A DNA stretch of 64,000 bases from Cyclobacteriaceae bacterium (GTDB lineage: Bacteria > Bacteroidota > Bacteroidia > Cytophagales > Cyclobacteriaceae): NCBI GenBank assembly GCA_026129485.1, contig JAHCHY010000008.1, positions 1 through 64,000 of the forward strand, in the 5' to 3' direction. The notes under the pieces were generated by a model that was not told the origin of the DNA, made no database searches, and worked only from the letters and a program-made list of their open reading frames with translations. This document shows positions 3,752 through 52,746 of this stretch, piece after piece. The first letter of the stretch is position 1, and every line of letters begins with the position of its first letter. Both the position numbers and the translations under genes were made by a program.

Positions 3752-3788
3752 GTTTGCAAAGGTAACAGGCGCCCGCGAGAAAATCCGG

Positions 3789-4238: not shown

Positions 4239-4976
4239 CTATATTCCCAAAATAACTTTAAGCCTGGTGTAGCCTGTTTTACTAATAGGCACCTGTTGTC
4301 CGTTACGTAAAACCGCCAGGTGTGTTTCTTTCTGGTAGGGTTCTATTTTGGTGATCTGGCCAATGTGTACAATATACGAACGGTGCACGCGAACAAACTG
4401 CTGCTCATCCAGCGTTTGCTCGTAAAACGACATGGTCTTGTTCTTCAGAAAGGTTCCTTCGGCTGTTACAATCTTTACAAAATCATCATCCGCTTCGAGG
4501 TAATGAATATCGTGTACCGGGATGATCTTAACCTTGCTGCCGGTTTTCACCACAATGCGATTATTTTGAGCCCGGGATTGCGCCATCACATCCAGTAAGC
4601 CGGCTGTTGCAGTTGCCGGTTGTGGCGATTTATCTAAGAACTTCTGTACCGCTTTGGCGAAGCGATCTTCTGAAACAGGCTTTAACAGGTAATCGATGGC
4701 ATTGGCCTCAAAAGCTTTCAAAGCAAATTCATCGAATGCGGTGATAAAAATTACAGCCGGCATGGGATTGACCAGCTCCAGCATTTCAAAGCCATTGATC
4801 TTGGGCATCTGGATATCCAGGAAAACCAGGTCGGGCTGATGTTGCTGAATGGCTTTTACACCTTCAAATCCATCGTTGCACTCGGCTGCAATTTCAACCT
4901 GCGGAAAGCGCGCGAGGTAGCTTTTCAGGATCTCGCGGCCCAGGGGCTCATCATCTATCAATATGGCTTTGATCAT
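4239..4976 (-). CDS. LytTR-family response regulator
   Basis: 245 residues. A receiver domain (1-125) has acidic residues D8/D9, phosphoacceptor D54 in LVFLDIQMP, and K99 in DYLLKP. A linker leads to a C-terminal LytTR DNA-binding domain (about 140-245) with HYLEADDDFVKI, FVRVHRSYIVH and VPISKTGYTRLK. The start codon overlaps the stop of the kinase gene by 4 bp (ATGA), showing a cotranscribed two-component pair. Targets are not evident from the sequence. LytT/AgrA-type regulators often act on envelope or surface functions; that is family knowledge only. Confidence 0.92.
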   Translation of the reverse strand: MIKAILIDDEPLGREILKSYLARFPQVEIAAECNDGFEGVKAIQQHQPDLVFLDIQMPKINGFEMLELVNPMPAVIFITAFDEFALKAFEANAIDYLLKPVSEDRFAKAVQKFLDKSPQPATATAGLLDVMAQSRAQNNRIVVKTGSKVKIIPVHDIHYLEADDDFVKIVTAEGTFLKNKTMSFYEQTLDEQQFVRVHRSYIVHIGQITKIEPYQKETHLAVLRNGQQVPISKTGYTRLKVILGI

Positions 4977-6001
4977 GGGCGTGGTGGAATAACCAGGTTA
5001 ACCGTAAACGTGTCGTTTGCACGGGCCGTGCTCATCAAATCATTTCGTGCATAGAGCAGGTACAGCCTGCGTTGCAGTCCGCTTAAGCCGAAACCACTTC
5101 CGGCAGACGGCTGCATATCGGCATCGTACGGGTTGGTTATTTTAATTTGTATTTCATTATTATTCCTTATTGCCCGCAGCTCAATCGTAGTTTTCCCGGT
5201 GGTGCCATACAACCCGAACTTGATGGCATTTTCCAGCAACGGTTGCAACACCAGCGTTGGAATAACAAAGTCGCTGATGGCTTCTTCCACCTGAATGTTA
5301 ACATCCAACCGATGCCCAAACCGCACCTTCTCAATGGAAAGATACGCTTGCAGGTATTCAAGCTCCTGTGCCAGCGTTATCCAGGGCTCATCGGCACGGC
5401 TTATCGTGAGGCGCAGAAAATCTGAAAGCTGCTGTACCATCTGGCGGGCCTGGTCGGGCTTAACCAATATCAGCGCGTTAATGGAGTTAAGGCTATTGAA
5501 TAAAAAGTGCGGCTGAAGCTGCAACTGGAGCTTATGCAGCTCGGCTTCGCGTGCAACCAGTTGTGTTTCGGCTTCGCGCGCCTGGCTTTCGGCTAATTCG
5601 CGCCAGCGGATATAAAAAATCAAAGCCGCACCTGCCGAGCCTATCATCACAAAACCCATCGCCCACCTTACCGGCATAGATTGATTTAAAAAAGCAAGAT
5701 AAACGCCATCGGTTATCAATTGCGCGAGGGCTTGTTGCGCCAGCCATTGCGAAAGAAAAGCGAAAAAGACCGCCAGCCCCAATAGCATCTGAAAAATTCC
5801 GGTGCGGGGCAAATAGCCGATAACCAGGTTCATTACCACCACCGCGCTGGCGGTTAGCAAATTAAACAGCACCGCATCCGTTACTGCGGTAATCCAATCA
5901 AAAGCAAAAAAGAAATGCAACCCGGCAGCATAGGCGGCTGTCCATAGTAAAACCACACCTGTAAGCGGTAATCGTGATATGTGTAATGATCCGGGAGCCA
6001 A
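4973..6001 (-). CDS. LytS/YehU-type sensor histidine kinase
   Basis: 342 residues. The N-terminal half has about four hydrophobic membrane segments (about 15-130), then a short coiled coil rich in Glu/Ala. The His_kinase (LytS-type) domain has LQPHFLFNSLNSINALI with the predicted phosphorylated H165. The ATP-binding domain shows LLENAIKFGLYG (N box) and GSGFGLSGLQRRLYLLY (G box). The frame begins at a TTG codon; no in-frame ATG precedes the first membrane segment and an in-frame stop lies five codons upstream, so TTG is the best start, with some doubt. It pairs with the LytTR regulator it overlaps. Confidence 0.88.
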   Translation of the reverse strand: MAPGSLHISRLPLTGVVLLWTAAYAAGLHFFFAFDWITAVTDAVLFNLLTASAVVVMNLVIGYLPRTGIFQMLLGLAVFFAFLSQWLAQQALAQLITDGVYLAFLNQSMPVRWAMGFVMIGSAGAALIFYIRWRELAESQAREAETQLVAREAELHKLQLQLQPHFLFNSLNSINALILVKPDQARQMVQQLSDFLRLTISRADEPWITLAQELEYLQAYLSIEKVRFGHRLDVNIQVEEAISDFVIPTLVLQPLLENAIKFGLYGTTGKTTIELRAIRNNNEIQIKITNPYDADMQPSAGSGFGLSGLQRRLYLLYARNDLMSTARANDTFTVNLVIPPRP

Positions 6002-35628: not shown

Positions 35629-35650
35629 TTTGTCGAATCCTGTCAATTTT
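35629..35650. repeat. 22-bp recurring motif, copy 3
   Basis: 19 of 22 bases match the copies at 25434 and 37157 (TTTGTCGAATCCTGTCAATT). It overlaps the stop codon of the DJ-1/PfpI lipoprotein gene by two bases. Confidence 0.55.
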
Positions 35651-36785
35651 AGTGGTAATCCAGCAACCGCTCCACCGTTTTTCTAAATCGCGTGGAATAC
35701 TGTTCTTCTATTCTGTCTAAAATTTCGGGAAACAGATAACCATTAGATTGTGAGTAGTCAACTATGACAGTATTGAAATCCCTAAACGCTGAATTGCTAT
35801 TTTGAGGAATATGTATTTCATCATACCCGTCAATGATATCAGATTGTGGCAGTAACTGCAAGCCATATTTTGAAGTAATCATTTCATTTCCTGTTGTGAA
35901 TGTTGCAATAGAAGCGGGGAAAGTCCTGTTATAGGCATCAAGAATAGCTGCAAGCTGTAATTCATGAATGTTGTTATCCAAAAGCACACCGATACGCTTA
36001 TTGCTTTTAAACCACGTTTTTAAGAGTATATTGAGTTGTGTCGACAGGCCAACCGTATTTGACTGATGTACCGTCTGTAAATGTTCATACGGGTACTGAA
36101 TATCAGCCATTATTTTTTTCATTTCTGCATCTCCCAATAATACATCGACCAAATGCAGGCTACCCTCAACTGCGGCAGACACTCCAGCGGTTGTATAAAT
36201 ATTGTCCTGCTCCGTATACTTTATATTACTTTTCCAATTAGCTCCCGGGAATTTTTTTCTCTGGTCTTTAATAGTACTTGCGTGTGTCGTGCAAAGAACA
36301 CTATCGAGCAAGCCTGCTTTTGCAAGGGTTCTGCTGCCCTCACAGACACTTAATTTTTTACTTCGAGAATGGGATTTCAGATAAGCCAAAATAGTGGTAT
36401 CAGAATCGTTAAGTAAAGCGGGAATAACGATCAGTGCAGGCTCAAGATGACGTATTTCAGGTATAGTAAAATGTGGCACTGCAAACACCCCCTTCCATAA
36501 TAAAAATGGCCTCTTTTCAGGTGCTGCTATAATTACGTTAAATCGTTGAGTTGAAGAGAAAATATAAAAGGGAGCCAGCAAGTCGAATATTTCAGTACCT
36601 GAGTTATCCGCCACAATCACTATTAAAGGCAAGCCAGGAACAATCTGCCGTGTACTCAATTGATTTATATCATTGCCATTATATTCCGCGACCTCATGAA
36701 ATTCCTCTATCGGCTGGCAGGCACATAAGAGTACTGAGAATGCAACAAATGAAATCCTTACGTATTTACGACTATTTGCGTTCAT
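35649..36785 (-). CDS. Tandem DJ-1/PfpI-like lipoprotein
   Basis: 378 residues with a lipobox (VAFSVLLCAC, lipid Cys about 23). Residues about 55-200 form one DJ-1/PfpI (GATase1-like) domain: LIVIVADNSGTEIFDLLAPFYIF, then the nucleophile-elbow region KLSVCEGSRTLAKAGLLD with the candidate catalytic Cys. A second, weaker DJ-1-like half follows (KRIGVLLDNNIHELQLAAILDAY ... SKYGLQLLPQSD). Unlike GlxA-type proteins it has no AraC HTH domain, but an AraC gene is present elsewhere in the island. Outer- or inner-membrane anchored. Role unknown. Confidence 0.75.
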   Translation of the reverse strand: MNANSRKYVRISFVAFSVLLCACQPIEEFHEVAEYNGNDINQLSTRQIVPGLPLIVIVADNSGTEIFDLLAPFYIFSSTQRFNVIIAAPEKRPFLLWKGVFAVPHFTIPEIRHLEPALIVIPALLNDSDTTILAYLKSHSRSKKLSVCEGSRTLAKAGLLDSVLCTTHASTIKDQRKKFPGANWKSNIKYTEQDNIYTTAGVSAAVEGSLHLVDVLLGDAEMKKIMADIQYPYEHLQTVHQSNTVGLSTQLNILLKTWFKSNKRIGVLLDNNIHELQLAAILDAYNRTFPASIATFTTGNEMITSKYGLQLLPQSDIIDGYDEIHIPQNSNSAFRDFNTVIVDYSQSNGYLFPEILDRIEEQYSTRFRKTVERLLDYH

Positions 36786-37464: not shown

Positions 37465-39675
37465 CTAAAACTGTTTAAGATAACTCAGCTTACAAATACC
37501 CGATTGATTTCGTTCCTGCGAATTGATAAAATTAGTTTCGTTAAACACCAGGTACAAAAAGCTTAACGGGGCAAACTGCCAGCTTCCGCGTACGTTCCAT
37601 CGGCCTTGTTCATTAAACGAGTTATATTGATAAAACAATGACAACTGGATATTCGCATCCCAGGCCAGCCGCAATCCCCCCATAACCAGCGAAGTGGTCT
37701 TGTCTTCCTGATTCGCTCCTATCCTTCTGAAATCGTTATACTCATAATCGGCTGTTAAGGCTACCTGCGGTGCAGGTGCAATGCGCACACCCAGCACGGT
37801 ACGGTTCAACTTACCATTGTAATAATCACCAAGCTCAAAGCTGCCGCGCAATGAGTATTTTTTCGATTGGTCTGTATTGTATGTGAACCGGTGCCGTGTA
37901 TAGTAATACGCACGCTGCTCAACCGGAATTCCTAACAATGAAAAATCAAAATTGATGTTTTGCCACGTGGGCGTGATCGCATACTCAAAAAAACTTCCGT
38001 CCTGGAAGATGGTATAGACCGGGAACAGGTACAGGTCGGCCTGCTGAAAGGAAAGATCATGGACATTGTGATAGTAGTTCACAAAAAAGCCCGGGTCGAA
38101 CCTGCGAATGAATTTCCATTTCTTCGGCCGCCAGATATAATAACCGCCCGGATTGTGATGAATTGTATTTTGCGCAAACACAAACCCCATGCCCGGTACA
38201 TACTGCCCGCTTACCGCTTTGGTAACCCAGCCATAATACCATTTGGGCAAAGCCCTTCCGGCATAAAAGCTACCGGCAAACCCAACGGAATCATTTGCAT
38301 TGTCGCGCGATACGGAAGCAAGGTATTGGATCGTCCACGTATCATCCGGGCGAATAAATCCATCAAGCGTAACAGTAATATTATTGTGTTGACTGAATCC
38401 TTTACCGTTGGTTTCATCCAACCGGTGCGTAACCATCGCACCAATGTTGTTTTGTTTTCCGTAATTTTTGAGATATCGCATCACACCAAAATTGGCTGCT
38501 CCCTGGAAATCCGTTTCACGCTGCCGCACGTACATCCCGGCCCATGTACGTTTTTGCGTTCGATCTGTAAATCGTAACCCTGCATCAATCGGTACCGGAC
38601 CGGCATTAAACTGCGCGTTGGATAACCCGATCGCCCGGCTGAAAAATGGCTTTACCCCGCCAATATCCGCACCGGCATATACCCCTGAGTTTTCGAGGAA
38701 GAACTGCCTGCGCTCAGGAAAAAATACATTAAAGCGCGTAAGGTTATTCACTGCGCGATCCACATCGGCCTGCGCAAAGTCGGTATTGAAAGTAACATCC
38801 AGCACACTATGCGGTGTTATGGCCCACTTGATTTCACCGCCCGCTTTCCATGCCGTATTTTCCGTTACCTGTTCAGCAGCATTTGTATTCCTGTTGTATT
38901 GCACTAATCCGTAAGGCTGAATGCGAATGTTTGCCGAAGGCGGAGGAAGCACAAGTCCATTCATCCGGGCTGCATACGTCATGCGATACGGGGAATAAGC
39001 CTGAGGCACCTGCGGATACACCGTAACTTCATAATCCCTGCGGGCCATGCGGGCAAACGTTACACCCCACGATGCAGCATCTGAAGCAGGTTTATCATAC
39101 CGGAGCGATTTAAAGGGAATGGCAAACTCGGCATAGTAGCCGCTATCGGTTACATGCGTGCGCACGCGCCAAAGCGCATCCCAATCGCTGTCGCGGTTTG
39201 TATCGTCAAAGGCTTGCAGGTCGCGTTGCGTACCCAGCGGAGTAGTCTGGAACGATACACAATATCTTTTCAGGTTTTGCGGATCAAGCTGTAAGTAAAA
39301 CACATCGTTATCGCCATAAATAAAATCCCTCCGGTAATCCTGCACGCGAATTCCTTTTCTGCCCACGCTGTCTTTGCAAAAAACACCGAAGTATAAATTC
39401 TTTTTATCGAACAAAACCCTTACATCAGTTTCATATAAATACTTGCCGCCCTGGCGCGGTTCCATGCGGAAAAAATCTTTCACCGCTTCGGCTTGCTGCC
39501 ATGCAGGTTCGATGAGCCTACCATCTAATTGAATGAGTTCGGTTGTTTCAACAGCAAAGAAAGAAGGTGCAATGGCGGGTGGGTTAAAAGCATCCTGCGC
39601 CCCGACAAAGCGAGGGCAGGATAAAACACACACTAAACCTAAGCCATAGCATTTGATAAATGAGGAAATCGTCAT
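37465..39675 (-). CDS. DUF5916 outer-membrane beta-barrel protein with CBM9-like domain
   Basis: 736 residues from the ATG for MTISSFIKCYGLGLVCVLSC (signal peptide ending FVGAQ). The N-terminal domain (about 40-240) is of the CBM9/DOMON type: LIQLDGRLIEPAWQQAEAVKDFFRMEPRQGG and DNDVFYLQLDPQN. The rest is a membrane beta-barrel, with FNVFFPERRQFFLENSG, a strong marker of DUF5916, around 320. The C-terminus ends with LSYLKQF. It is the last gene of the metal operon, 16 bp after a permease gene. Its tail has a second, diverged copy at 21801-22041. Role in the operon unknown; outer-membrane transport or binding is inferred. Confidence 0.9.
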   Translation of the reverse strand: MTISSFIKCYGLGLVCVLSCPRFVGAQDAFNPPAIAPSFFAVETTELIQLDGRLIEPAWQQAEAVKDFFRMEPRQGGKYLYETDVRVLFDKKNLYFGVFCKDSVGRKGIRVQDYRRDFIYGDNDVFYLQLDPQNLKRYCVSFQTTPLGTQRDLQAFDDTNRDSDWDALWRVRTHVTDSGYYAEFAIPFKSLRYDKPASDAASWGVTFARMARRDYEVTVYPQVPQAYSPYRMTYAARMNGLVLPPPSANIRIQPYGLVQYNRNTNAAEQVTENTAWKAGGEIKWAITPHSVLDVTFNTDFAQADVDRAVNNLTRFNVFFPERRQFFLENSGVYAGADIGGVKPFFSRAIGLSNAQFNAGPVPIDAGLRFTDRTQKRTWAGMYVRQRETDFQGAANFGVMRYLKNYGKQNNIGAMVTHRLDETNGKGFSQHNNITVTLDGFIRPDDTWTIQYLASVSRDNANDSVGFAGSFYAGRALPKWYYGWVTKAVSGQYVPGMGFVFAQNTIHHNPGGYYIWRPKKWKFIRRFDPGFFVNYYHNVHDLSFQQADLYLFPVYTIFQDGSFFEYAITPTWQNINFDFSLLGIPVEQRAYYYTRHRFTYNTDQSKKYSLRGSFELGDYYNGKLNRTVLGVRIAPAPQVALTADYEYNDFRRIGANQEDKTTSLVMGGLRLAWDANIQLSLFYQYNSFNEQGRWNVRGSWQFAPLSFLYLVFNETNFINSQERNQSGICKLSYLKQF

Positions 39676-39691
39676 GGGCACTAATCAGAAG

Positions 39692-41125
39692 CTATGAAGT
39701 CAGCACCGGCTCAAGTCCTTCTTTCCTGTAAACCCACACGCTAATGCCCGTAAGCAGCACGGCAAAAACAAGCAACGCCACAAAATCGGCTGCGAACGAT
39801 GACGCTACCTCGTCATAGTTGTATTCAAATGAAGGGAGCTTTTCAAAATCACTGCTGCTCATCAGCTCGTTGTTGAACATGCGCGGTAAAAACCAGGCAC
39901 GCCATTCTTCGGTAAACGCAATCACCCTGTTTTTATACGCTTCATAATGGCGTGAAGAAGTGCCGGCTATGTCGTTGAGCGCGTGCTGCAACAGCAAGGC
40001 TGGTGAAACGAACCGGAATGACTCTACAAACTGCTTTTGTGCCTCTGACTTTTCCCGGTATTCTTCCAGCACCGGGGCAACCGATTTCTTCACCACATCC
40101 TGCGAGGCAAAATATCCAAGGTAAAACTGGTACTGGTTTTTCACCGTGGTGTCCTGCTGCGCGAGTTCGGGGTGGTCGCGGTAATAGCTTGCCAGTATTT
40201 TATTAGCTTCTTTCTCCGCTTCCGCTTTAGCTGTGCGCATTTCGTGTATCATGTTGACACGCGAGGGCACGGGATATAAATTGTTTGCCAACTGGCTGAT
40301 AACAGCCGGAAGCAACAATACCAACACCGTCCAGACGGAAATAACCGCTACCGCATTGGTGCCGGATGTTTTGCCAAACACATTCACGATCAGCGCTACG
40401 GCAAACCAGAAGAAGATGTAGAGTGTAACCAATCCCAGCAAGGGCAGGATTCCGAAGCTCCACGAAACGCCTGCCACGAGCAAGGCAACAATAAGCGAGC
40501 CCCATACGATGGCCGTCATCAGGAAAAAACGCAACAGCATTTTGTTAAACAGCCAGCCGTAAAGCGATACCGGCTGCGCAAGCGTGAGCCGTAACAAACC
40601 TTGTTCTTTTTCTTCCGATAACAAATTGTAGCTGAACGCCAGCACTAACAGCGGCAACAAATAGATCAGCACAAAGGCCAGGTCAAAGCTGCCAAACATA
40701 AGCTGCACCGGGTTGCTCAGTTCTGTAAAGCTGGCTGCATACGTTTCAATATTCACATACAGGTATGCCTTCATGGTATGCGGGTATAAATCACTCTGGC
40801 CTGTTGCCAGGAATGCCAACGATGCAGGCGGCATCACCGCCACACGTGGTGCACGGTTGCCGATATAGTTCAGCCTTCTTCTCCACCCGTCATCTTCAAG
40901 GGATAACAACCCTTTTTCCAGCGAGTCGATTTTTGCCTTATGCACTTCGTCTGCTTCGCGCATGGTGTTCACGGCTGTTTCGGTTTCTGCTTTTCGCAAC
41001 GTTACTTTCCCTGTTCCGTTGGAAACCGCAAACAGGCAAAGCACAACAAACACAATCAGCAAGACAACCGCCCAACGGTTGCGTATCAGTTGCAGTCCTT
41101 CATATTTTACATAGTGAAAAAACAT
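39692..41125 (-). CDS. DUF3526 ABC transporter permease, second subunit
   Basis: 477 residues. The protein has an N-terminal TM (WAVVLLIVFVVLCLFAV), a large extracytoplasmic loop of about 130 residues, a cluster of TMs in the middle (about 165-290), a second large extracytoplasmic loop and a final TM (DFVALLVFAVLLTGISVWVY). This is the ABC-2 layout with DUF3526 domain. It is a paralogue of the adjacent permease gene (13-bp gap) and the two probably make a heterodimer with the ATPase at 42566. Such systems are exporters or maturation factors in Bacteroidota; here the metal context is the only clue. Confidence 0.88.
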   Translation of the reverse strand: MFFHYVKYEGLQLIRNRWAVVLLIVFVVLCLFAVSNGTGKVTLRKAETETAVNTMREADEVHKAKIDSLEKGLLSLEDDGWRRRLNYIGNRAPRVAVMPPASLAFLATGQSDLYPHTMKAYLYVNIETYAASFTELSNPVQLMFGSFDLAFVLIYLLPLLVLAFSYNLLSEEKEQGLLRLTLAQPVSLYGWLFNKMLLRFFLMTAIVWGSLIVALLVAGVSWSFGILPLLGLVTLYIFFWFAVALIVNVFGKTSGTNAVAVISVWTVLVLLLPAVISQLANNLYPVPSRVNMIHEMRTAKAEAEKEANKILASYYRDHPELAQQDTTVKNQYQFYLGYFASQDVVKKSVAPVLEEYREKSEAQKQFVESFRFVSPALLLQHALNDIAGTSSRHYEAYKNRVIAFTEEWRAWFLPRMFNNELMSSSDFEKLPSFEYNYDEVASSFAADFVALLVFAVLLTGISVWVYRKEGLEPVLTS

Positions 41126-41138
41126 AATCGGTTTGAGG

Positions 41139-42554
41139 TTAGAGGATGTTCATTTTTCTAACAGACCATACAACCAGCAGCGCAGACACCGCCAGCCATG
41201 CCAGCAGCACACCGATGCCGCCAAGGTTAGCGTGGATGATGTCGCCATAGCTTTTCGGCTCATACGAGAAATCAGGAATTCCTGCATAGAAAGATTTATC
41301 GGCTTTGTATGCCCAGTCGCCATACTTAGAGTTTTCTGCAAAGTGCGTGTTGAGATTGTCCATCAACGCAAGCCTGTATTTTTCGGCAGCATCGCTGAAA
41401 TGCGCATGTGCGGTATAATCCGTGCGGCACAAGGCCATCGATAAAAACCGGGCAGGCAGGTAAGGCGACAGCACGGAAGCCAGGCGATATACATTCGCCT
41501 GGTTTTCGTGTATGGTTTTTAATTGCCCATAATGCTTGTCAAAAATTTCAGCCGTATGCTCTTCACCGCGCTGCATGAGGTAGCCGTCCCAGTTAAAAGG
41601 CAGCTTGTGAAGGCTGTCCACGCCATATTTTTTCAGTGTTTCTTCTTCGAGCTTCTTTGCCTGTGTGCTGAACGGATCATGGCCATCCAGCCCGTTGCGT
41701 TCGTCTTCCGCCACAGCCGCCATAAACTGGCTTTGTGTAGGGTACGGACTTATGCTTTCGGCAAAACGGCTGGCTGCTTTCGGCATTCCCAAACACGCCA
41801 CCATCCACACGGCCAGCAACACCACGAGTGATATGCCCGATTTTTTCGCCCATGCCGAAACAATCAGCGTGAGGTTTGAAAAGACTGCATAGTATGCGAG
41901 GTAGAATAAAAAGAGTAACGCCAATACTCCCGCGTTAAATTCACCAAAGTCTTTTGCTTTGCTTAAAAAGTAAATGCTGAGTATAAAAACAGGAACGATA
42001 ATGAGCAGCACAGCCGCAAATAACCCGAGCCATTTTCCGGCAGCGAGCGTTACGGATGAAACGCCCTGGCTTTTCAGCAGCCGGAGCGTGCCGCTTTCAC
42101 GTTCGGATGTAAACGCATCAAACCCGGTAAGAATAATGAACAGCGGAATGATAAACAGCAAAACAAAATCGGGTGTGAGATCGCCAAAACGCGAAATGGC
42201 AGCCTGATCTTGTGCCGCCATGTACCGGGCTTCGTTTCGCGTGTGGCCTTCTAAGTAAATGCTTACACCTGCATACTTATCGATGCCCTGATCGATCAGC
42301 GAAAGCGGATATTTAGGCTTGAAGGCATACGTGCCATAATGCGCAGCCGAGTGCGGGTTCTTTGCATCCTGGCTTACCCACACGCTGCGGGCATTTTCTC
42401 TGGCTTCGGTATGCTGCCTGTTAACCCACTGGTAATAGTTGTTGCTGATCATAACGGCAACCGCTAACAAGGCGATCATCACAATCGCCATCACGCGAAA
42501 GCGGCCTTCGCGCAGGCGCTCCTTTAACTCTTTGAAAGCTATGGTGAATATCAT
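41139..42554 (-). CDS. DUF3526 ABC transporter permease, first subunit
   Basis: 471 residues, ABC-2 type. An N-terminal TM (FRVMAIVMIALLAVAVMIS) is followed by a periplasmic loop, then FLLFIIPLFIILTGFDAFTSERESGTLRLLKSQGVS, the conserved cytoplasmic coupling segment of DUF3526 permeases. Further TMs and a second long loop follow, and a final TM ends with the cytoplasmic SVRKMNIL. It is 11 bp after the ATPase gene. It shares its layout with the next permease, so they probably came from a duplication. Confidence 0.88.
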   Translation of the reverse strand: MIFTIAFKELKERLREGRFRVMAIVMIALLAVAVMISNNYYQWVNRQHTEARENARSVWVSQDAKNPHSAAHYGTYAFKPKYPLSLIDQGIDKYAGVSIYLEGHTRNEARYMAAQDQAAISRFGDLTPDFVLLFIIPLFIILTGFDAFTSERESGTLRLLKSQGVSSVTLAAGKWLGLFAAVLLIIVPVFILSIYFLSKAKDFGEFNAGVLALLFLFYLAYYAVFSNLTLIVSAWAKKSGISLVVLLAVWMVACLGMPKAASRFAESISPYPTQSQFMAAVAEDERNGLDGHDPFSTQAKKLEEETLKKYGVDSLHKLPFNWDGYLMQRGEEHTAEIFDKHYGQLKTIHENQANVYRLASVLSPYLPARFLSMALCRTDYTAHAHFSDAAEKYRLALMDNLNTHFAENSKYGDWAYKADKSFYAGIPDFSYEPKSYGDIIHANLGGIGVLLAWLAVSALLVVWSVRKMNIL

Positions 42555-42565
42555 GGCTATGTTTT

Positions 42566-43264
42566 TTAGTTCATGTGTTTTAAGTACAACTTCTCTAAAT
42601 CGGTGTGGTTTACGTGGCTGGTCGTGAGCAGCTCGAGCAGGCGGCCTTCTTTCATAATGCCGATGTGTGTGCCGGTTTCTTTGGCGCGGAACAAATCGTG
42701 CGTGGCCATGAGTGTAGCCACACCCAGCGCACTGAGCTTGGTGAGCAATTCTGAAAATTCATTGCTCGCTTTCGGGTCGAGGCCGGAAGTGGGTTCGTCT
42801 AACAGCAGCACTGCGGCATTTTTTGCCAGCGCAATGGCAATGCCTACTTTCTGGCGCATCCCTTTTGAATAGTGCGAAGCCTTGCGCGAATGGGCCTCCT
42901 CCTGCAAGCCGGCTTCTGTCAGAAATTTTTTGCATTCGTCTTTTGAATACTTTTTCCCGGCAAGACCCGAAAAGTATTCAAGGTTCTCTAATCCCGTCAG
43001 GTTTGGATAGAGAATAAGGTTTTCAGGGATGTACGACAGCAGCTTTTTGGTTTCGAGTGAATGAGCCGTAACCGATAAGCCATTGATAAGCGCCTCGCCA
43101 CCCGTAGGCTGAATAAAATTCAGGAACAAATTGATGGTGGTAGTTTTGCCTGCGCCATTCGCGCCCAGCAAACAAAAGATGTCGCCCTTGTTTACGGTAA
43201 AGCTAACTGCATCCAATGCAGTCGCATCATTGTATTTTTTGGTGAGTTGTTTTGCTTCTAACAT
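42566..43264 (-). CDS. ABC transporter ATP-binding protein
   Basis: 232 residues from the ATG for MLEAKQLTKKYNDATALD; the upstream frame would overlap the GTPase gene and lacks family support. The Walker A motif is GANGAGKTTT (about 36-45), the signature is YSKGMRQKV, Walker B is AVLLLDEPTSGLD and the switch His is in LMATHDLF. It belongs to the CcmA/NosF-like branch of ABC-2 exporters and energises the two DUF3526 permeases that follow. It lies between a metallochaperone GTPase gene and the permeases. Confidence 0.93.
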   Translation of the reverse strand: MLEAKQLTKKYNDATALDAVSFTVNKGDIFCLLGANGAGKTTTINLFLNFIQPTGGEALINGLSVTAHSLETKKLLSYIPENLILYPNLTGLENLEYFSGLAGKKYSKDECKKFLTEAGLQEEAHSRKASHYSKGMRQKVGIAIALAKNAAVLLLDEPTSGLDPKASNEFSELLTKLSALGVATLMATHDLFRAKETGTHIGIMKEGRLLELLTTSHVNHTDLEKLYLKHMN

Positions 43265-43305
43265 ATCGTTGAGGTTATGATTGGGTATTACATCTGTTTT
43301 CAGCT

Positions 43306-44511
43306 TCAAATCGGCCACGTGTCGTTAAACTTTCCGCCATTCAAAAAATATTGTGCTTCCGCATCGTTGCATAAGCAAGCCTCCAGCTCGCGCCTTACTT
43401 TTTCTTTATCGAGGTGTTGCCCGATGATGACAATTTCATTCAGCCGGTCGCCCCATGTTTTGTTCCATTTCTTTTGGATGAATTCCTGATTTTCGATGTA
43501 GGCCGGGTTGGCCGCACGCTCGCGCATGGGCACCGATGCCCACCACTTGCCATATACTTCGGCACGCGATGAGCCACCGGCCTGGCTCCACAGCAATGCA
43601 TGTGCAGGCCGGGATACCATCCAGAAAATACCTTTGCTGCGCACGACATTGTTTGGCCAGCGATGCTGAATGTAATTCCAGAACCGGTCAGGATTGAACG
43701 GTCGTGGATCGCGAAACACAAACGAGCTGATACCATACTCTTCCGTTTCGGGTGTGTGGATACTATTCAGCTCTTTGATCCACCCGGCTGATTGCTCGGC
43801 TTTTTCGTAATCAAACAGCTTGGTATTCAGAATATCGGTTGAATGGATTTTACTGTACGTAGTTTTGATAATGCGTGCATCGGGATTCAGCTTTTTGATG
43901 GTCCCCTCCAGCAACTTTAAGTTTTCGGGCGAAACCAGATCGGTTTTGTTCAGCACGATCACATTGGCAAACTCTACCTGATCGGTTAATAAATTAACAA
44001 TGCTGCGCTGGTCTTCGGCATCGTCTGTCAGCTTACGAGTGAGTACCGTATCGGCACTGCCAAAGTCTTTAAAGAAGTTGAAGGCATCCACCACGGTAAC
44101 CATTGTATCGAGGCGGGTGATGTCAGCAAGGTTTTGCAGCTTTTCGCCCGTATCGAATGTAAAGGTCTGCGCTACGGGAATGGGTTCAGAAATACCCGTG
44201 CTTTCAATGAGCAAATAATCGAACTTACCTTGTCTGGCTAACGTGCTTACTTCTTTCACCAGGTCTTCGCGAAGGGTACAGCAGATGCAGCCGTTGCTCA
44301 TCTCTACTAATTTCTCTTCGGTGCGCGACAGTTTGATTTCGTTTTTTACGAGCTGCGCATCGATGTTCACTTCGCTCATGTCGTTCACGATCACCGCTAC
44401 TTTCATGCCCTCGCGGTTGTGGAGCACGTGGTTGAGCAACGTGGTTTTACCCGCACCGAGAAAACCGCTTAGCACCGTTACCGGCAATTTTTTTTCTTTA
44501 AACAGCCACAT
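43306..44511 (-). CDS. COG0523 GTP-binding metallochaperone (ZigA/YciC-like)
   Basis: 401 residues. The Walker A motif is GFLGAGKTT (16-24), the metal-binding CxCC is CICC (75-78) in [12 protein letters not shown], then the Walker B-like [12 protein letters not shown] and the guanine specificity motif NKTD (VLNKTDLV). The C-terminal CobW_C domain (about 270-390) contains [27 protein letters not shown]. This is the COG0523 branch that in many bacteria is Zur-regulated and loads zinc onto proteins under zinc limitation. Its position beside a His-rich lipoprotein and a TonB receptor fits a zinc role. The ATG is 2 bp after the lipoprotein's stop. Confidence 0.92.
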
Positions 44512-44513
44512 GC

Positions 44514-44897
44514 TTACGGGGTTAGGGCATCAACACGCTTTTTGATCTGTTCTATCCGTTGCTTCAGCTCAAGCTGTAGTTCCAGCATTTCGGCCGCAGT
44601 AACATTAACCGGCTCATGCGAATGATTGTGCCCTTCATGATCGTGGTGATGCTCGTTGCCCGGCACTTCAATCAAATCCTGCTCCCATTCTTCAATAGCC
44701 GCTAAAATCACGAAAGCGGAATCAGCCGGGATAGCCTCCTGCTTCAGACGCGATTCAAGATCTTCAGCAATCTGAAGTGCCGTATTGTGCACATCAGCAG
44801 CTTCCTTCAGCAGCTTTTCATCCTGCGAAGGCGCTGCACACGCCCATGCCAGTAGTACAGGCACAAGTCCTAAAAGTTTAGAGTAGCGCTGCATCAT
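44514..44897 (-). CDS. His-rich metal-binding lipoprotein
   Basis: 127 residues with a lipoprotein signal, [10 protein letters not shown] (lipid Cys about 20). Two helical segments (about 28-75 and 98-125) are separated by the loop [16 protein letters not shown] (81-96), with seven His and two Asp/Glu in a run: a clear metal-binding loop, as seen in periplasmic zinc-binding proteins. Its start overlaps the end of the preceding gene by 20 bp. It probably captures or buffers zinc in the periplasm. The function is inferred from composition and context. Confidence 0.85.
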
Positions 44898-45297
44898 CTA
44901 AAATAAAGTTCATGTGGTTTACATCTTTATCGTTCAGGCGAAGCTTTCCCCTTACGGTAATCACCTGGTCGGCTTTAAACCGGGGAGGCTTATTGGAAAA
45001 GAAAATTTCAGCTACCGATTCAGGGCCGGCACCTCCGCAAAAAAAACAGGCGGCATACGGGTACTTCGATACGATGATCGACTGGCCCCCCATATCGAAG
45101 GGCAGGTAATGACCGCGCACGGTAACTTCCGTTCCGGCCTTGCTCAGGATCGCCTCGCTAAACTTAGGCACCAAGTATTTCTCCTTGTATTCCGGGAAGT
45201 ATTTAGGCTCAAACCGCACCTGCGCGAAAAGCTTCCACCCATCCTCCGGCTCCTGCAAAGGCGAAATCAGTAAAAAAACAGCGATTAAGTATTTCAT
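44878..45297 (-). CDS. DUF3299-like secreted protein, copy 1
   Basis: 139 residues with a short signal sequence (MKYLIAVFLLISPLQ). The body matches the DUF3299 pattern: VTVRGHYLPFDMGGQSIIVSKYPYAACFFCGGAGPESVAEIFF, where the Cys pair C84-x2-C87 and the following GAGPES replace the ACIHxPPPP region of DUF3299. An OB-fold-like end follows (ADQVITVRGKLRLNDKD). The Cys pair is a likely metal or redox site. It is the first gene of the metal operon, starting 4 bp after the first inverted-repeat operator. A second copy lies at 50365. Confidence 0.75.
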   Translation of the reverse strand: MKYLIAVFLLISPLQEPEDGWKLFAQVRFEPKYFPEYKEKYLVPKFSEAILSKAGTEVTVRGHYLPFDMGGQSIIVSKYPYAACFFCGGAGPESVAEIFFSNKPPRFKADQVITVRGKLRLNDKDVNHMNFILDDAALL

Positions 45298-45300
45298 AAA

Positions 45301-45315
45301 TGCAACAATGTTGCA
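45301..45315. promoter_or_regulatory. 7-1-7 inverted repeat, predicted Fur-family (Zur-like) operator, site 1
   Basis: TGCAACAATGTTGCA is a perfect 7-1-7 palindrome, the architecture of Fur/Zur/PerR boxes. It lies 4 bp upstream of the minus-strand operon's start codon, so bound protein would block transcription or translation initiation. Confidence 0.6.
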
Positions 45316-45337
45316 ATAATATGAATTTTAACTTAAT

Positions 45338-45352
45338 TGCAACAATGTTTCA
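45338..45352. promoter_or_regulatory. 7-1-7 inverted repeat, predicted Fur-family operator, site 2
   Basis: TGCAACAATGTTTCA repeats site 1 with one changed base; the centres are 37 bp apart, allowing cooperative binding. Confidence 0.6.
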
Positions 45353-45365
45353 AAAAGAAATGTAT

Positions 45366-45381
45366 TTTAGATTAGTCTAAA
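45366..45381. promoter_or_regulatory. DtxR-family-like palindrome
   Basis: TTTAGATTAGTCTAAA is a perfect 6-4-6 palindrome resembling DtxR/IdeR/MntR boxes (TTAGGTTAG-type). It lies about 47 bp upstream of the transcription start predicted for the TonB receptor. Confidence 0.5.
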
Positions 45382-45407
45382 TATTTTTTTATAATATTCT
45401 AATTAAA

Positions 45408-45415
45408 TAAATTTG
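45408..45415 (+). promoter_or_regulatory. -7 promoter element of the TonB receptor gene
   Basis: TAAATTTG is an exact TAnnTTTG match, 15 bp before the start codon, giving a very short leader. Confidence 0.5.
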
Positions 45416-45430
45416 TGGCTCTAAAAGGAT

Positions 45431-47689
45431 ATGAAAATTTTTATTACAGTTTTGATTTTAATTGCAGCCCAGACGCTGCGGGCACAAGGATCGCTTTCGG
45501 GAAAAGTGCAGGCAAAAGGTGAGCCGCTGGAGTTTATCAATGTGCTGCTGAGTGGCACTACACAGGGCGCTACCACAAACGAGGCCGGTGAGTTCGTTCT
45601 TCAACCGGTCAAAGCGGGAAACTACGTGGTCAGGATTTCGGGTATTGGCTATCAGGCCAAAGAAGTTGCTGTTAGCATTCGCGATGGCGTAAATGCACGC
45701 ATTGAAATTGAGCTACAGGAAGATGTATCGCAATTGAATGAAGTTGTGGTAACGGGCACCATGAAAGAAGTTACCAAAATGAATTCGCCTATTCCGGTTG
45801 AAGTGTATGCACCGTCTTTCTTTCTCAAGAATCCTACTCCCAATATTTTTGAAGCGCTCGCTACCGTAAACGGTGTGCAGCCGCAGATCAACTGCAACGT
45901 GTGTAACACGGGCGATATTCATATTAACGGGCTGGAAGGCCCTTACACCATGATATTGATTGACGGCATGCCCATTGTAAGCAGCCTGGCAACCGTGTAC
46001 GGGTTATCGGGCATACCCAACAGCATGGTTAAGCGCATGGAGATTGTGAAAGGCCCGGCTTCCACACTTTACGGATCGGAAGCTGTGGGTGGCGTAATCA
46101 ATATCATTACAAAAGAGCCGGGCTCCATACCCAAGCTGAAATTCGATGTCTTCGGTACTTCCGTGGGAGAATACAATCTCGACCTGGCATCCGGGATAAA
46201 AGCCGGAAAATCATCTGCGCTTTTTGGCATAAACTATTTTAACTACACACAAAAGCGCGACATTAACCACGACAACTTTACGGATGTTACGCTTCAAAAC
46301 AGGATTTCACTTTTCAACAAGTGGAGCTTCAACAGGCCATCCGGAAAAAACTTTTCATTAGCCGGACGTTATGTATATGAAAACCGGTGGGGTGGCGAAA
46401 TGCAATGGACAAGCAACCATCGCGGAAGCGACCAGGTGTATGGCGAGTCGATCTACACGAACCGCGCAGAGCTGATCGGCAATTACCAGCTCACTCCCGT
46501 TTTTATCGATTACTCGTACAACTATCACGTACAGGATTCCTATTACGGAGTGGTAAAATATTATGCCAGGCAACAGGTGGCGTTTACCCAGCTCCGGCTG
46601 AATAAAAAATTTGGGAGCCACGAATTGTTAGCCGGTATTCCGCTACGCTATATTCATTACGATGACAACACCGTAGGCACAGCCAACAGCAACGGCAGCA
46701 ACCAGCCCGATGTAACTTTCCTTCCGGGGATTTTTGTGCAGGACGAAGCAGCGTTCACTTCGCGCTTTACCACATTAGCCGGCTTGCGTTACGACCGGCA
46801 CAACGTGCACGGCAACATTTTTACGCCACGCCTCAGCTTCAAGTATTCGCCCAACGCCAACAATACCTTACGCCTGACGGGAGGCAGCGGTTATCGCGTG
46901 GTAAATTTATTTACGGAAGATCATGCCGCGCTTACCGGCTCGCGCGAAGTGGAAATACGAAACGATCTGAAGCCGGAGCAATCGTGGAATGTAAACCTGA
47001 ACTACGCGCACAACTTTATTGTGAACGATGGCTTTATTGGTTTTGATGCCAGCCTGTTCTACACCTACTTCACCAACAAGATCGTGGGCGATTTTCTTAC
47101 TGACCCTAACAAAATCATTTATGATAACCTGGATGGCTATGCCGTATCGCGCGGGTTAACCGTAAATACCGATGTAGCATTAGCCAACAGCTTTAAGATT
47201 ATTTCAGGCATTACGTGGATGGATGTATTCCAAGTGCAGGGCAACGAAGCAGGTGAAAACAAAATACCGCAAATACAGGCGTCCCGCTTTTCGGGAACAT
47301 TCACGGTAAGCTATACTGCTCCGAAATCGCTCGTTACGTTCGATCTTACCGGTAAAGTAACCGGTCCCATGCATTTGCCTGTTGTTGAAAATGATTTCCG
47401 GCCGGCTATGTCGCCCTGGTTCGGGTTGCTGAATTTGCAGGTAAGCAAAGCGTTTAACTCCAATATTGAAGTATATGCCGGTGTAAAGAACCTGCTCAAC
47501 TTTATCCCGAAACACCCGTTGCTGCATCCTGACGATCCGTTCGACCGGCCCAGTGGAAAATACTTTGATGAAAACGGTAACCCGCGCCCTGACACTAACC
47601 CCAACGGTTATACTTTTGATACTGCATATAACTATGCGCAGTTGCAAGGAGCCAAAATGCAGGCAGGCTTACGTCTGACAATAAATTGA
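45431..47689 (+). CDS. TonB-dependent receptor, probable metal or metallophore uptake
   Basis: 752 residues with a signal peptide (MKIFITVLILIAAQTLRAQ). A carboxypeptidase-regulatory-like beta-sandwich (about 20-100) precedes the TonB box region (EVVVTG), the plug (about 120-230) and the 22-stranded barrel. The plug contains INCNVCNTGDIHINGLEGPY with a C155-x2-C158 pair, then MILIDGMPIVSS and KGPASTLYGSEAVGGVINII, the standard plug end. A Cys pair exposed in a plug is unusual and may bind the metal. It is divergent from the zinc-type operon and shares its regulatory region. Imports a metal complex across the outer membrane; which one is not certain. Confidence 0.92.
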   Translation: MKIFITVLILIAAQTLRAQGSLSGKVQAKGEPLEFINVLLSGTTQGATTNEAGEFVLQPVKAGNYVVRISGIGYQAKEVAVSIRDGVNARIEIELQEDVSQLNEVVVTGTMKEVTKMNSPIPVEVYAPSFFLKNPTPNIFEALATVNGVQPQINCNVCNTGDIHINGLEGPYTMILIDGMPIVSSLATVYGLSGIPNSMVKRMEIVKGPASTLYGSEAVGGVINIITKEPGSIPKLKFDVFGTSVGEYNLDLASGIKAGKSSALFGINYFNYTQKRDINHDNFTDVTLQNRISLFNKWSFNRPSGKNFSLAGRYVYENRWGGEMQWTSNHRGSDQVYGESIYTNRAELIGNYQLTPVFIDYSYNYHVQDSYYGVVKYYARQQVAFTQLRLNKKFGSHELLAGIPLRYIHYDDNTVGTANSNGSNQPDVTFLPGIFVQDEAAFTSRFTTLAGLRYDRHNVHGNIFTPRLSFKYSPNANNTLRLTGGSGYRVVNLFTEDHAALTGSREVEIRNDLKPEQSWNVNLNYAHNFIVNDGFIGFDASLFYTYFTNKIVGDFLTDPNKIIYDNLDGYAVSRGLTVNTDVALANSFKIISGITWMDVFQVQGNEAGENKIPQIQASRFSGTFTVSYTAPKSLVTFDLTGKVTGPMHLPVVENDFRPAMSPWFGLLNLQVSKAFNSNIEVYAGVKNLLNFIPKHPLLHPDDPFDRPSGKYFDENGNPRPDTNPNGYTFDTAYNYAQLQGAKMQAGLRLTIN

Positions 47690-50364: not shown

Positions 50365-50799
50365 TCACTTCACCAGCACGGCTTCCTCTACAATAAAATT
50401 ACCATGCTCCAGGTCGGAATCATTGAGCTTTAGCTTGCCTTTGATGCGGATAAACTGGTCGGGCTCGAACTTAGGCGCTTTGGCTTTAAAATAAACTTCG
50501 GCAATAGATTCAGGGCCGGCACCGCCACAAAAGAAGCACTGGCTGTAAGGGAATTTGGAAAGAATAATGTAGGCATTGCCATCTACGTCAATCGGCAGGT
50601 AATAGCCTTCCAGCTCAAGCTCTTTGCCTGCCATCGCTTTTAAGTCGGCAGAAAAAGTAGGGTACAAAAAATACTCCCCCGCTTTTTCATTGTATTTCGC
50701 ATCGAACCTGGTTTTGGCAAACGCTACCCAGCCATCGGTTTGGGCGAAAGCTGAACTACCCCACACCAGCATCAACAAAGAAAAAAATACATTTTTCAT
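50365..50799 (-). CDS. DUF3299-like secreted protein, copy 2
   Basis: 144 residues from the ATG for MKNVFFSLLMLVWGSSAFAQ (signal peptide). It aligns with the protein at 44878: DGWVAFAKTRFDAKYNEKAGEYFLYPTFS equals DGWKLFAQVRFEPKYFPEYKEKYLVPKFS there, and the central QCFFCGGAGPESIAEVYF (C88-x2-C91) is almost identical. The OB-like end is FIRIKGKLKLNDSD. It lies downstream of a LolD/FtsX-type ABC pair on the same strand (82-bp gap). The same kind of pairing of DUF3299 with an FtsX-type ABC is known for Zur-controlled loci of Pseudomonas. Confidence 0.75.
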   Translation of the reverse strand: MKNVFFSLLMLVWGSSAFAQTDGWVAFAKTRFDAKYNEKAGEYFLYPTFSADLKAMAGKELELEGYYLPIDVDGNAYIILSKFPYSQCFFCGGAGPESIAEVYFKAKAPKFEPDQFIRIKGKLKLNDSDLEHGNFIVEEAVLVK

Positions 50800-50881
50800 A
50801 GCCCTGAATTTCGGATTGTAAGTTAACAAATTCGTTTTAGCTTCATTTCTAAAATTGTGCCAGCCGGTCTATAAAAGGTTG

Positions 50882-52120
50882 TCAACCTTTAGCCAGCACC
50901 TTATGTATATCCGTACTGTACGCCTGGAAGGAAGGGATCAGCGAACAGATCACTCCCAGCACCACGCTGCCCGCCAGCAAGTACCACTCCTCTTTATAAA
51001 GCACAAACGCGCTCACACCGGCAGTCCGGCTTTCCGTTACCAGCGTAGTAAACAAATACAAAACCGTGTGCCCCAACACGATACCCAATACACTGCCGCA
51101 CAATGTCAGCGCCACGCCTTCCAGTTGAGTAGCCCACAGCAGCTTGCCCCGGCTGGCTCCCATCGACCGCATAATGGCTAAGTCGTACTGTCGTTCCTTC
51201 AAGGAATTATACAGCGCAATAAAAATGCTGAGCGCTGAAATAAAAATGAGCACATACGCAAAACCGGTAAGCGCTTCAATGCCCACGCCCAAAATGGAGA
51301 ACAACCGCGCTGCTTCAAACGAGGGTGAAGCCGCCTGCATGTTGGTTTGACTATTAATGTAGCGCGGCAACTGGATGGCCGCGATGGGATTGCGATACTT
51401 TATTAACAACGAGGTAATCTCACGGGTAGAATCCGAAGCTAATGCGGAAGACACCAACACAGAAGCGTTTAAAGAATCCGGCTTTACTCCGGCTTCTTCT
51501 TCGCTGTGCTCATGCACCAGCCAGATGCTGGCCACATTGGTGAGGATAAGATTATCGAGCACACTGTAAGTCGGTTTTAAAATTCCTTTTACTACGAACG
51601 GGTGCTCATCGTGGGCATGGCCTTCGGCACTTAAGCCGTGCGCGCTGGCAAAGGTATCGCCTAATTTCAGATTAAGCAGTTTGGCAACCGTAGCCCCGAC
51701 TGTAACTTCAAGATCATTTACCCACCAATCGCCATTCGCCAGTTCCGCTTTATACAATTCCGCGTAAGCGTGTGTGGTACCTACTATGCGATAATTCTGG
51801 TAGCTGTCGCCCAATGCCACGGGTATAGCATGCTTCACCAACCGGTGTTTGGCTAAGCGGTCTGCTTCATTCAGCTTAATGTTGCCGGTAGGGAAATCGA
51901 CATGAAACACATTGCAGAGTATAAGCTGTAACGGACTGCCCTTGGCGCCTACCACCAGGTCAATGCCTTTGCTGTTGTCTGAAATTTTTTCCTGCAACTG
52001 GTTATTGAACAACAGCAGGATGGTGATCATGGCAATGCCCAGCGAAAGCAGCACAATATTAAGTAGTGTGTTGAGCGGCCGCGACCGGAGGTAACCGATA
52101 ATAAGGGTAAATAAATTCAT
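50882..52120 (-). CDS. FtsX-type ABC transporter permease with His-rich periplasmic loop
   Basis: 412 residues, MacB/FtsX topology: one N-terminal TM (NTLLNIVLLSLGIAMITILLLF), a large periplasmic domain of about 220 residues, and three C-terminal TMs. The periplasmic domain contains FASAHGLSAEGHAHDEHPF and later WLVHEHSEEEAG, with six His in short range, which suggests metal binding. After TM2 comes the conserved cytoplasmic LKERQYDLAIMRSMGASRGKLLW. Its ATG overlaps the ATPase stop by one base (TAATG). FtsX-type transporters usually do not move metal ions but extract or remodel envelope components. Confidence 0.9.
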   Translation of the reverse strand: MNLFTLIIGYLRSRPLNTLLNIVLLSLGIAMITILLLFNNQLQEKISDNSKGIDLVVGAKGSPLQLILCNVFHVDFPTGNIKLNEADRLAKHRLVKHAIPVALGDSYQNYRIVGTTHAYAELYKAELANGDWWVNDLEVTVGATVAKLLNLKLGDTFASAHGLSAEGHAHDEHPFVVKGILKPTYSVLDNLILTNVASIWLVHEHSEEEAGVKPDSLNASVLVSSALASDSTREITSLLIKYRNPIAAIQLPRYINSQTNMQAASPSFEAARLFSILGVGIEALTGFAYVLIFISALSIFIALYNSLKERQYDLAIMRSMGASRGKLLWATQLEGVALTLCGSVLGIVLGHTVLYLFTTLVTESRTAGVSAFVLYKEEWYLLAGSVVLGVICSLIPSFQAYSTDIHKVLAKG

Positions 52121-52746
52121 TACAGTTGAATCACGTTTTGGATTTTGTTTTTAAGCCGCTGGTCATGCGTGGCAATGATTAGCGTAGCCCGGTTTTGCTG
52201 CGCCACCTGCAACAGCAGCTCGCTTACGCGATCGCAATTTTTATCATCGAGGGCAGAGGTAGGTTCATCGGCCAGGATAACCGATGGCTTGTTTAATACA
52301 GCACGGGCAATGGCCACGCGTTGCGCCTGCCCTAAGCTTAATTCCTGAATGCGTTTTTTCTTTTGATCGGCAATATCAAGCTGGGCAAGCACTTCCTCTA
52401 CCCGGCTCTTATCTTGTTTTATCCCCGCTAAATACGGAGCCATCAGCAGGTTTTGCTCTACGGTAAGCGAAGCCAGCAAATGGTTACGCTGAAAAATGAA
52501 GCCGTAATGCTTTCCGCGAAAGCGATCAAGCTGTGATTCGGTAAGCGTGGAAAGCTCAGTGCCGTTTACTTCAATGCCTCCGCGTTGCAGCTTTAACAGT
52601 CCGCCCAGCAAATGGAGTAACGTGGTTTTACCACTGCCCGATTCGCCCAGCAGCAGAAACTGTTCGCCTGTTTGTATGGTGAGGTCGCGAAAGGTAATTT
52701 CTTTTTCGGGATTATAGCGATAAGCTAAGGATTGTACACGTATCAT
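52120..52746 (-). CDS. LolD-like ABC transporter ATP-binding protein
   Basis: 208 residues. Walker A is GESGSGKTTL (about 34-43), the signature is LSLGQAQRVAIARA, Walker B is SVILADEPTSALD and the switch His is in LIIATHDQRL. The class is LolD/MacB/FtsE, matching the FtsX-type permease it overlaps. It is the first gene of a three-gene operon ending with the DUF3299-like gene. A -7 promoter box lies 14 bp upstream, partly overlapping the terminator of the preceding gene. Confidence 0.93.
   Translation of the reverse strand: MIRVQSLAYRYNPEKEITFRDLTIQTGEQFLLLGESGSGKTTLLHLLGGLLKLQRGGIEVNGTELSTLTESQLDRFRGKHYGFIFQRNHLLASLTVEQNLLMAPYLAGIKQDKSRVEEVLAQLDIADQKKKRIQELSLGQAQRVAIARAVLNKPSVILADEPTSALDDKNCDRVSELLLQVAQQNRATLIIATHDQRLKNKIQNVIQL

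Follow-up and report, generated by a model that had tools for sequence, protein, structure and literature searches.

What would an ABC-2 transporter and a DUF5916 outer-membrane barrel do in an operon whose other genes point to zinc? ABC-2 folds are usually exporters. The question is raised by a Cyclobacteriaceae locus in the window, by which we mean the whole stretch of 64,000 nucleotides analysed here, the first 64 kb of contig C39 in a 4.08-Mb draft genome of 40 contigs. A preliminary description of the locus proposed a zinc-acquisition operon of seven minus-strand genes divergent from a TonB receptor, and suggested that its ABC-2 and DUF5916 genes export or mature a zinc ligand (zincophore) which the receptor takes back. 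All seven reading frames and the receptor were found where it had placed them. The features of the locus and of a linked module are as follows.

37465-39681, minus strand: DUF5916 outer-membrane barrel with an N-terminal CBM9-like domain (PF19313/PF06452)
39692-41125, minus strand: PermB, the second DUF3526 ABC-2 permease (Pfam)
41139-42554, minus strand: PermA, DUF3526 ABC-2 permease, NosY-like, with conserved H68, H72, E102 and H104 (Pfam)
42566-43318, minus strand: ABC ATPase (PF00005), or 42566-43264 from the inner ATG
43306-44511, minus strand: COG0523 GTPase, ZigA-like, with a CICC motif (PF02492/PF07683)
44514-44897, minus strand: HisLP, lipoprotein with an EVPG motif and a seven-His loop, from the translation
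44878-45297, minus strand: D3299a, secreted DUF3299-like OB-fold protein with a CFFCGGAGPES motif, by fold match to PA4066 (4hsp)
45301-45315, strand not set: predicted Zur box 1, operator-like palindrome TGCAACAATGTTGCA, 0 mismatches
45338-45352, strand not set: predicted Zur box 2, second copy of the palindrome, 1 mismatch
45431-47689, plus strand: divergent TonB-dependent receptor (PF00593/PF07715/PF13715)
50365-50829, minus strand: D3299b, paralogue of D3299a (46% identity), in the linked Zrg/MacB-like module
50882-52120, minus strand: FtsX/MacB-type permease of the linked Zrg-like module (PF02687, PF12704)
52120-52746, minus strand: LolD-type ABC ATPase of the linked Zrg-like module

Pfam recognised DUF5916 with CBM9, two DUF3526 permeases, an ABC ATPase, a CobW GTPase and the TonB receptor in this set, and no DUF1826 or MerC gene in the operon. 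The motifs reported earlier, CxCC (GCICC), the seven-His loop and the Cys pair (CFFC), are all present in the translations. The reported junction sizes hold as well, except that D3299a and HisLP overlap by 20 bp according to their coordinates. The HisLP-GTPase gap is 2 bp by the same measure. With the inner ATG as the ATPase start (residue 19 in the longest frame), 41 bp separate the GTPase and ATPase genes, whereas with the GTG start they overlap by 13 bp; the following gaps are 11 bp (ATPase-PermA), 13 bp (PermA-PermB) and 10 bp (PermB-DUF5916). The best NCBIfam model for the GTPase is ZigA (NF038288) at 562.7 bits, below its cut-off of 600; the protein appears ZigA-like and is not filed as ZigA. 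In the receptor, the plug region at about 45870-46000 carries a CNVC pair (QINCNVCNTGDIHINGLEG) which could bind metal. At 35649-36785 the window also encodes a secreted-looking protein with a DJ-1/GlxA-like stretch, seen by eye, and BLAST relatives of it were found in the stretches of loci L050, L083, L130 and L131.

The name DUF3299-like, given to D3299a earlier, was compared with Pfam and with solved folds. The DUF3299 Pfam model, which we take to be PF11736, matched 0 of 10 members of the D3299 family at E <=5. The predicted fold of D3299a (pLDDT 83.8) has as its first PDB match 4hsp, the solved DUF3299 protein PA4066 (E 1.7e-3, prob 1.00, TM 0.49), with other OB-fold proteins close behind and no PDB match reaching E 0.001. 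Its paralogue lies in the LolD-FtsX-D3299b module (50365-52746), which resembles Zrg/PA4063-66 and stands about 5 kb from the operon start. The two genes flanking this module matched no Pfam family and ZrgA was not recognised in them; no box of up to 3 mismatches was found in front of the module. In three relatives (L129, L137 and L140) the ABC-2 and LolD-FtsX genes are in one run, with a D3299 protein in two of them.

PermA matches at E <=1e-30 were found in 59 of 291 genomes of the order, and in the phylum sample 44 of 392 genomes have PermA. The sample includes 4 other members of the genus, and all 4 lack the operon, which therefore appears to be an accessory system, not a group-wide one. 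Eight named relatives were found with PermA, seven of them MAGs labelled Cyclobacteriaceae, Flammeovirgaceae or Cytophagales and one from Saprospiraceae. From the order, 60 stretches were fetched from 55 of the 59 genomes, one being the genome of L034 again (G040, G218 and G280 were left out), and from outside it 36 stretches from 35 of 41 genomes (without G621, G487, G602, G526, G367 and G591). Two sets of 76 loci were counted. The first comprises the window, the 8 named loci, the 60 order stretches and 7 plasmid loci; the second comprises the window, 7 named loci, 59 from the order and 9 plasmid loci. L031 and L042 nearly duplicate L033 and L034; they were dropped from the counts of partners, pair spacing and boxes within 4 kb, and kept in the two counts of upstream boxes. 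The short contigs L044, L098, L120 and L146 were kept, and six genomes (G047, G101, G169, G198, G073 and G534) give two loci each, so the loci are not all independent.

Both permeases were found in 77 of 78 loci, the exception (L075) being cut by the contig end. Their genes adjoin each other, with a 783-bp gap in L074, and the ABC ATPase family is present in 72 of 76 loci. In the second set a TonB receptor accompanies the transporter in 44 of 76 loci, the GTPase in 22, the His-rich lipoprotein in 18, DUF5916 and the DUF3299-like protein in 15 each, MerC in 14, DUF1826 in 8 and a XusB-like DUF4374 lipoprotein in 5; the last and the receptors, as the other outer-membrane parts where present, are of uptake type. 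Pfam agreed on the examples tested (DUF1826 4/4, MerC 2/2, DUF4374 2/2). At least one zinc-type partner occurs in 31 of 76 loci. The GTPase is retained in six of the eight named loci despite differing gene order; of the two others, L031 is a short contig and L032 has none within its stretch. The order in L034, for example, is DUF1826-ATPase-PermA-PermB-DUF5916-D3299-GTPase, and boxes stand in front of DUF1826 and where D3299 starts. Relatives of the receptor (58-79%) are near the operon in L028, L029 and L034. That relatives belonging to other families have these partners with the same transporter indicates that the grouping is more than chance. By these counts the DUF3526 ABC-2 transporter forms the conserved core, and a TonB receptor often stands next to it.

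The preliminary description would have counted it against itself if relatives had the ABC and DUF5916 genes apart from the others, and this is seen in part: most relatives have the ABC and lack DUF5916, which occurs in 15 of 76 ABC loci. Beside the window's own protein, 24 DUF5916 rows were obtained, and 22 of them (21 distinct loci, L042 repeating L034) are 38-82% identical to it. The second DUF5916 of the same genome is 28% identical to that of the operon, and the rows from L133 (29%) and L117 (23%) are as distant as this paralogue. Judged from these identities, the DUF5916 of the operon is a member of an ABC-linked subfamily which travels with the transporter. Among the 19 lipoproteins listed, EVPG is found in 14 and a variant of it in 4, and it is not in the stretch given for L067. 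A His-rich loop follows EVPG in the rows given except that of L073, for which another stretch is given. Families recurring within 6 kb in at least 4 of the 76 neighbourhoods numbered 17; Pfam covered part of them, with several small ones outside. No ligand-biosynthesis family was recognised among these 17, and opine dehydrogenase was found in 0 of 20 genomes by a search whose control was silent.

The divergent gap of 133 bp holds two TGCAAC-N3-GTTGCA palindromes 37 bp apart. With 3 mismatches allowed, the window contains the motif about as often as its shuffles do (5 rows against a mean of 4.2), so the case for an operator rests on comparison among loci. In the first set the box, at 0-1 mismatch, is present in the gap upstream of the ABC run in 48 of 76 loci, and each of 120 motifs with permuted half-sites reaches 0 or 1 of the 76 runs. 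A slightly stricter pattern was found in 46 of 76 loci; of 346 regions upstream of unassigned genes in these stretches, 18 have it. These 18 exceed the expectation from permuted motifs and some may belong to other zinc genes. A search with no preset motif returned the same box as the commonest exact palindrome, in 29 of 73 loci (L031, L042 and L028 omitted), the next unrelated ones being found in 2. Where neighbouring sites are up to 120 bp apart, 38 of 50 pairs are spaced 35-39 bp. Counted up to 4 kb from the permeases, a box is present in 55 of 76 loci of the second set, and the 21 loci with none include all 6 proteobacterial plasmid loci. Every one of the 8 named loci has a box of 0-1 mismatch within its stretch, and outside the order 11 of 36 fetched stretches have one. 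In family f13 six of seven fetched loci lack it (four of seven by a looser pattern). By motif and context the palindrome is a predicted Zur operator.

In the whole genome nine places match at 0-1 mismatch, and five of them are the operon pair and three sites on contig C14 (C14:31244, C14:33673 and C14:33710), which are positioned at the starts of a TonB receptor gene and of the gene that follows it, for a small secreted protein. Contig C14 also carries the one Fur-family gene detected in the genome. The C14 unit (L035, 13245-16339) encodes the box-marked receptor and a 209-aa secreted protein with no Pfam family. A single box marks the start of the receptor gene, and two boxes in tandem, spaced 37 bp, mark that of the secreted protein gene. 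L027 has a similar gene pair (52-53% identity) ahead of its operon genes and a Fur-family gene (Pfam FUR) within the operon itself; in L046, L047 and L071 BLAST places such a gene in the stretch that was fetched. The remaining four places and one 2-mismatch site were examined as L036-L040. Those of L037 and L039 are intergenic, before a DUF4199 protein and an E1-E2 ATPase, and those of L040, L038 and L036 are placed within or at the end of reading frames. In L039 the E1-E2 (P-type) ATPase gene (3091-5123) has the palindrome-like site TGCAACCCTATTGCA about 60 bp upstream and could perhaps, under the operon's regulator, serve zinc efflux. Tolerating up to 2 mismatches brings the genome total to 49 forward and 52 reverse matches; the reversed pattern gives 16 and 22, so that much of what such weak matches show is noise.

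Taken together, these observations are best read, with moderate confidence, as a zinc-scavenging system of the ZnuGHI type under predicted Zur control. The zinc-type operon proposed earlier is supported, as Zur-type, patchily conserved in the order and partnered by the receptor. Under zinc shortage Zur would come off its two operators, and transcription of the operon, and probably of the receptor gene, would follow. Zinc, alone or in a complex, would cross the outer membrane through the TonB receptor, as the family and linkage of the latter suggest. The His-rich lipoprotein and the OB-fold DUF3299-like protein may hold the metal in the periplasm and pass it on, and PermA would receive zinc at a conserved His-His-Glu-His set whose metal binding is presumed. 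ATP hydrolysis by the NosY-like ABC-2 pair would then move zinc inward or off its carrier, the direction being likewise presumed, and the ZigA-like GTPase could distribute it in the cytoplasm. DUF5916 would add an outer-membrane barrel with a CBM9-like domain.

The permeases carry the central part of this proposal. In 82 PermA sequences H72, E102 and H104 are invariant and H68 is conserved at 0.99, being Asn in one of six proteobacterial sequences; conservation was also followed in a further alignment of 36 sequences. The four residues are between the first and second membrane helix, and from the basic N-terminus we infer that they face the periplasm, where they form a predicted metal site. 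PermB has no His at or above the 85% conservation level. The closest solved chain to PermA by profile is NosY (7o0y_D, E 2.3e-5, residues 135-258 only), and the first 11 matches of a fold search with its weak model were NosDFY, NosFY or NosDFYL chains. The nearest NCBIfam model is GldF, at 42 bits far under its cut-off. The PermA model has a pLDDT of 68.7, with the part containing the predicted metal site (residues 54-125) under 50, and clustering of the four residues in three dimensions was set aside, the model being too weak there.

NosDFYL serves the copper loading of nitrous oxide reductase. The ABC-2 pair may similarly be a mechanical machine which, instead of carrying zinc into the cytoplasm, puts it on or takes it off a partner in the periplasm or outer membrane, the lipoprotein standing in for NosL. 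Profile and fold both put NosY nearest to PermA, the lipoprotein partner recurs in its 18 loci, and the LolD-FtsX ABC that joins the run in three relatives is about 5 kb off here. However, the profile match covers that limited part of PermA, the model is weak, and Pfam found no NosD or NosL family among the seven operon proteins. We regard this reading as rather unlikely.

A wider form of the zinc-scavenging reading would make the DUF3526 ABC-2 transporter an unrecognised class of metal ABC, NosY-like, with a built-in His-His-Glu-His site, supplied with zinc by a TonB receptor with no separate soluble protein of the ZnuA kind, and acting as the zinc-starvation ABC of many Bacteroidota that lack ZnuB. 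This is put forward tentatively, as a possibility more doubtful than probable. In the order sample a strong ABC-3 match was found in 20 of 59 genomes with DUF3526 against 118 of 232 without it (Fisher p 0.028), and neither ABC-3 nor ZIP in 18 of 59 against 40 of 232 (p 0.029); the p values ignore kinship, 15 weak ABC-3 matches were counted as absent and sub-cut-off ZIP matches as present. Pfam also found DUF3526 in 0 of the last 40 genomes. Since these lack all three, another zinc route must exist, and DUF3526 ABC as a general substitute for ZnuABC or ZIP was rejected. The window's genome carries a ZIP gene on contig C23. In genome G136 two DUF3526 ABC systems within one 18-kb stretch flank a ZIP-family zinc transporter gene (C283:17365-18087, inside L053).

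The metal itself may differ among relatives. On an Eleftheria terrae plasmid (L106, 3250-3440) a Fur-box-like sequence, seen by eye, precedes a run of DUF2946, TonB receptor and DUF3526 ABC genes, which suggests an iron-linked branch of the same transporter family. A Caulobacter-type site (up to 2 mismatches) was found in none of L103, L104, L105, L106, L107 and L109. With this Fur-like site, and no box in the proteobacterial plasmid loci, the transporter family is probably not zinc-only. The system here might import a metallophore complex of cobalt, iron or copper, either relieving zinc shortage or being wired to Zur in this group and no more. The L106 site, the five loci with XusB-like DUF4374 lipoproteins, a kind known to bind siderophores (available portion of PMC13142918), and the precedent of cobalt-pyochelin (available portion of PMC11481552) speak for it. 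However, the ZigA-like GTPase, the Zur-like boxes and the DUF1826 partners, a family which appears in a figure of Zur-regulated COG0523 clusters in the accessible part of PMC2770081, point to zinc, and we consider such import quite improbable.

Least probable is that the ABC-2 pair exports a zinc-binding molecule retaken by the TonB receptor, as has been proposed for the MacB-type PA4063-PA4066 system with pyochelin. This idea is favoured by the ABC-2 fold and by the Zur-controlled MacB-type exporter with DUF3299 of Pseudomonas (PMC11481552, in part), a module similar to which is about 5 kb off here, but opposed by the lack of a recognised ligand-biosynthesis family among the 17 recurrent neighbour families and by outer-membrane parts of uptake type. 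Of the preliminary picture, the Zur-type zinc-starvation operon with its receptor is supported, and zincophore export or maturation has so far found no support.

Zinc uptake under scarcity is poorly described in Bacteroidota, and no paper on such a system in the phylum was found in the literature searched. DUF3526, alone or with zinc, gave no paper in that literature, which covers few subscription papers, and the available portion of PMC9976891, on Zur in Cytophagales, has nothing on such a system. The analysis yields a concrete candidate operator, often in tandem 35-39 bp apart, and a core transporter with a predicted metal site. New here are the near-invariant His-His-Glu-His of PermA, NosY as its closest solved relative and the transporter-linked DUF5916 subfamily. 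Partner families with no known function are now named: the EVPG/His-loop lipoprotein, the CFFC OB-fold protein and the ABC-linked DUF5916.

Among known systems, ZrgABCDE of Vibrio and PA4063-PA4066 of Pseudomonas are Zur-controlled ABC systems with a DUF3299 and a zinc-binding periplasmic protein, according to the available portions of PMC11481552 and PMC9817125. The ABC of PA4064-65 is of MacB/FtsX type in the former source, whereas that of the operon is of ABC-2 type, and the LolD-FtsX-D3299b module is the nearer counterpart. XusABC of Bacteroides is a xenosiderophore uptake system for iron in the accessible text of PMC13142918; some relatives of our operon have a DUF4374 lipoprotein beside the receptor, and the window has none. 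ZnuABC is a Zur-linked zinc ABC system, as the operon is predicted to be, but of a different ABC class, and no ZnuB-type (ABC-3) permease matched in this genome. With NosDFYL the operon shares a NosY-like membrane domain and a lipoprotein beside the ABC. Unlike it, the operon has two different large-insert permeases, the conserved His and Glu residues, zinc-type partners and the operator.

The closest system is ZnuGHI of Caulobacter crescentus, an ABC-2 operon that is Zur-repressed and zinc-responsive (Mazzon et al. 2014, PMC4176598, available portion). It was the only system returned when the literature was searched for ABC-2, Zur regulon, TonB-dependent receptor and zinc together, and it gives a precedent for the ABC-2 genes, which the preliminary description had called unexplained in such an operon. 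ZnuGHI and the TonB receptor ZnuK (CC1517-CC1520) comprise one ABC-2 ATPase, two ABC-2 permeases and a receptor which matters for growth under zinc shortage, according to the same portion, where no znuGHI phenotype is given; a review of 2018 counts znuGHI among the ABC systems for zinc uptake (PMC6103462, in part). The operon shares the ABC-2 ATPase, two ABC-2 permeases and neighbouring TonB receptor, a likeness drawn from described gene content and a DUF3526 (PF12040) match in a C. vibrioides genome. The Caulobacter operator TGTTATNNNATAACA differs from the palindrome found here. Caulobacter likewise has a Zur-linked COG0523 gene, zrpX, at another place in its genome (available portion of PMC4176598). 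The znuGHI genes listed in that portion include no GTPase, His-rich lipoprotein, DUF3299-like protein or DUF5916, all four of which the operon has. The Caulobacter system, known since 2014, is tentatively connected in this way to the NosDFYL machine, and by its gene content our operon appears to be a Bacteroidota variant of the ZnuGHI-type system with extra zinc-handling parts.
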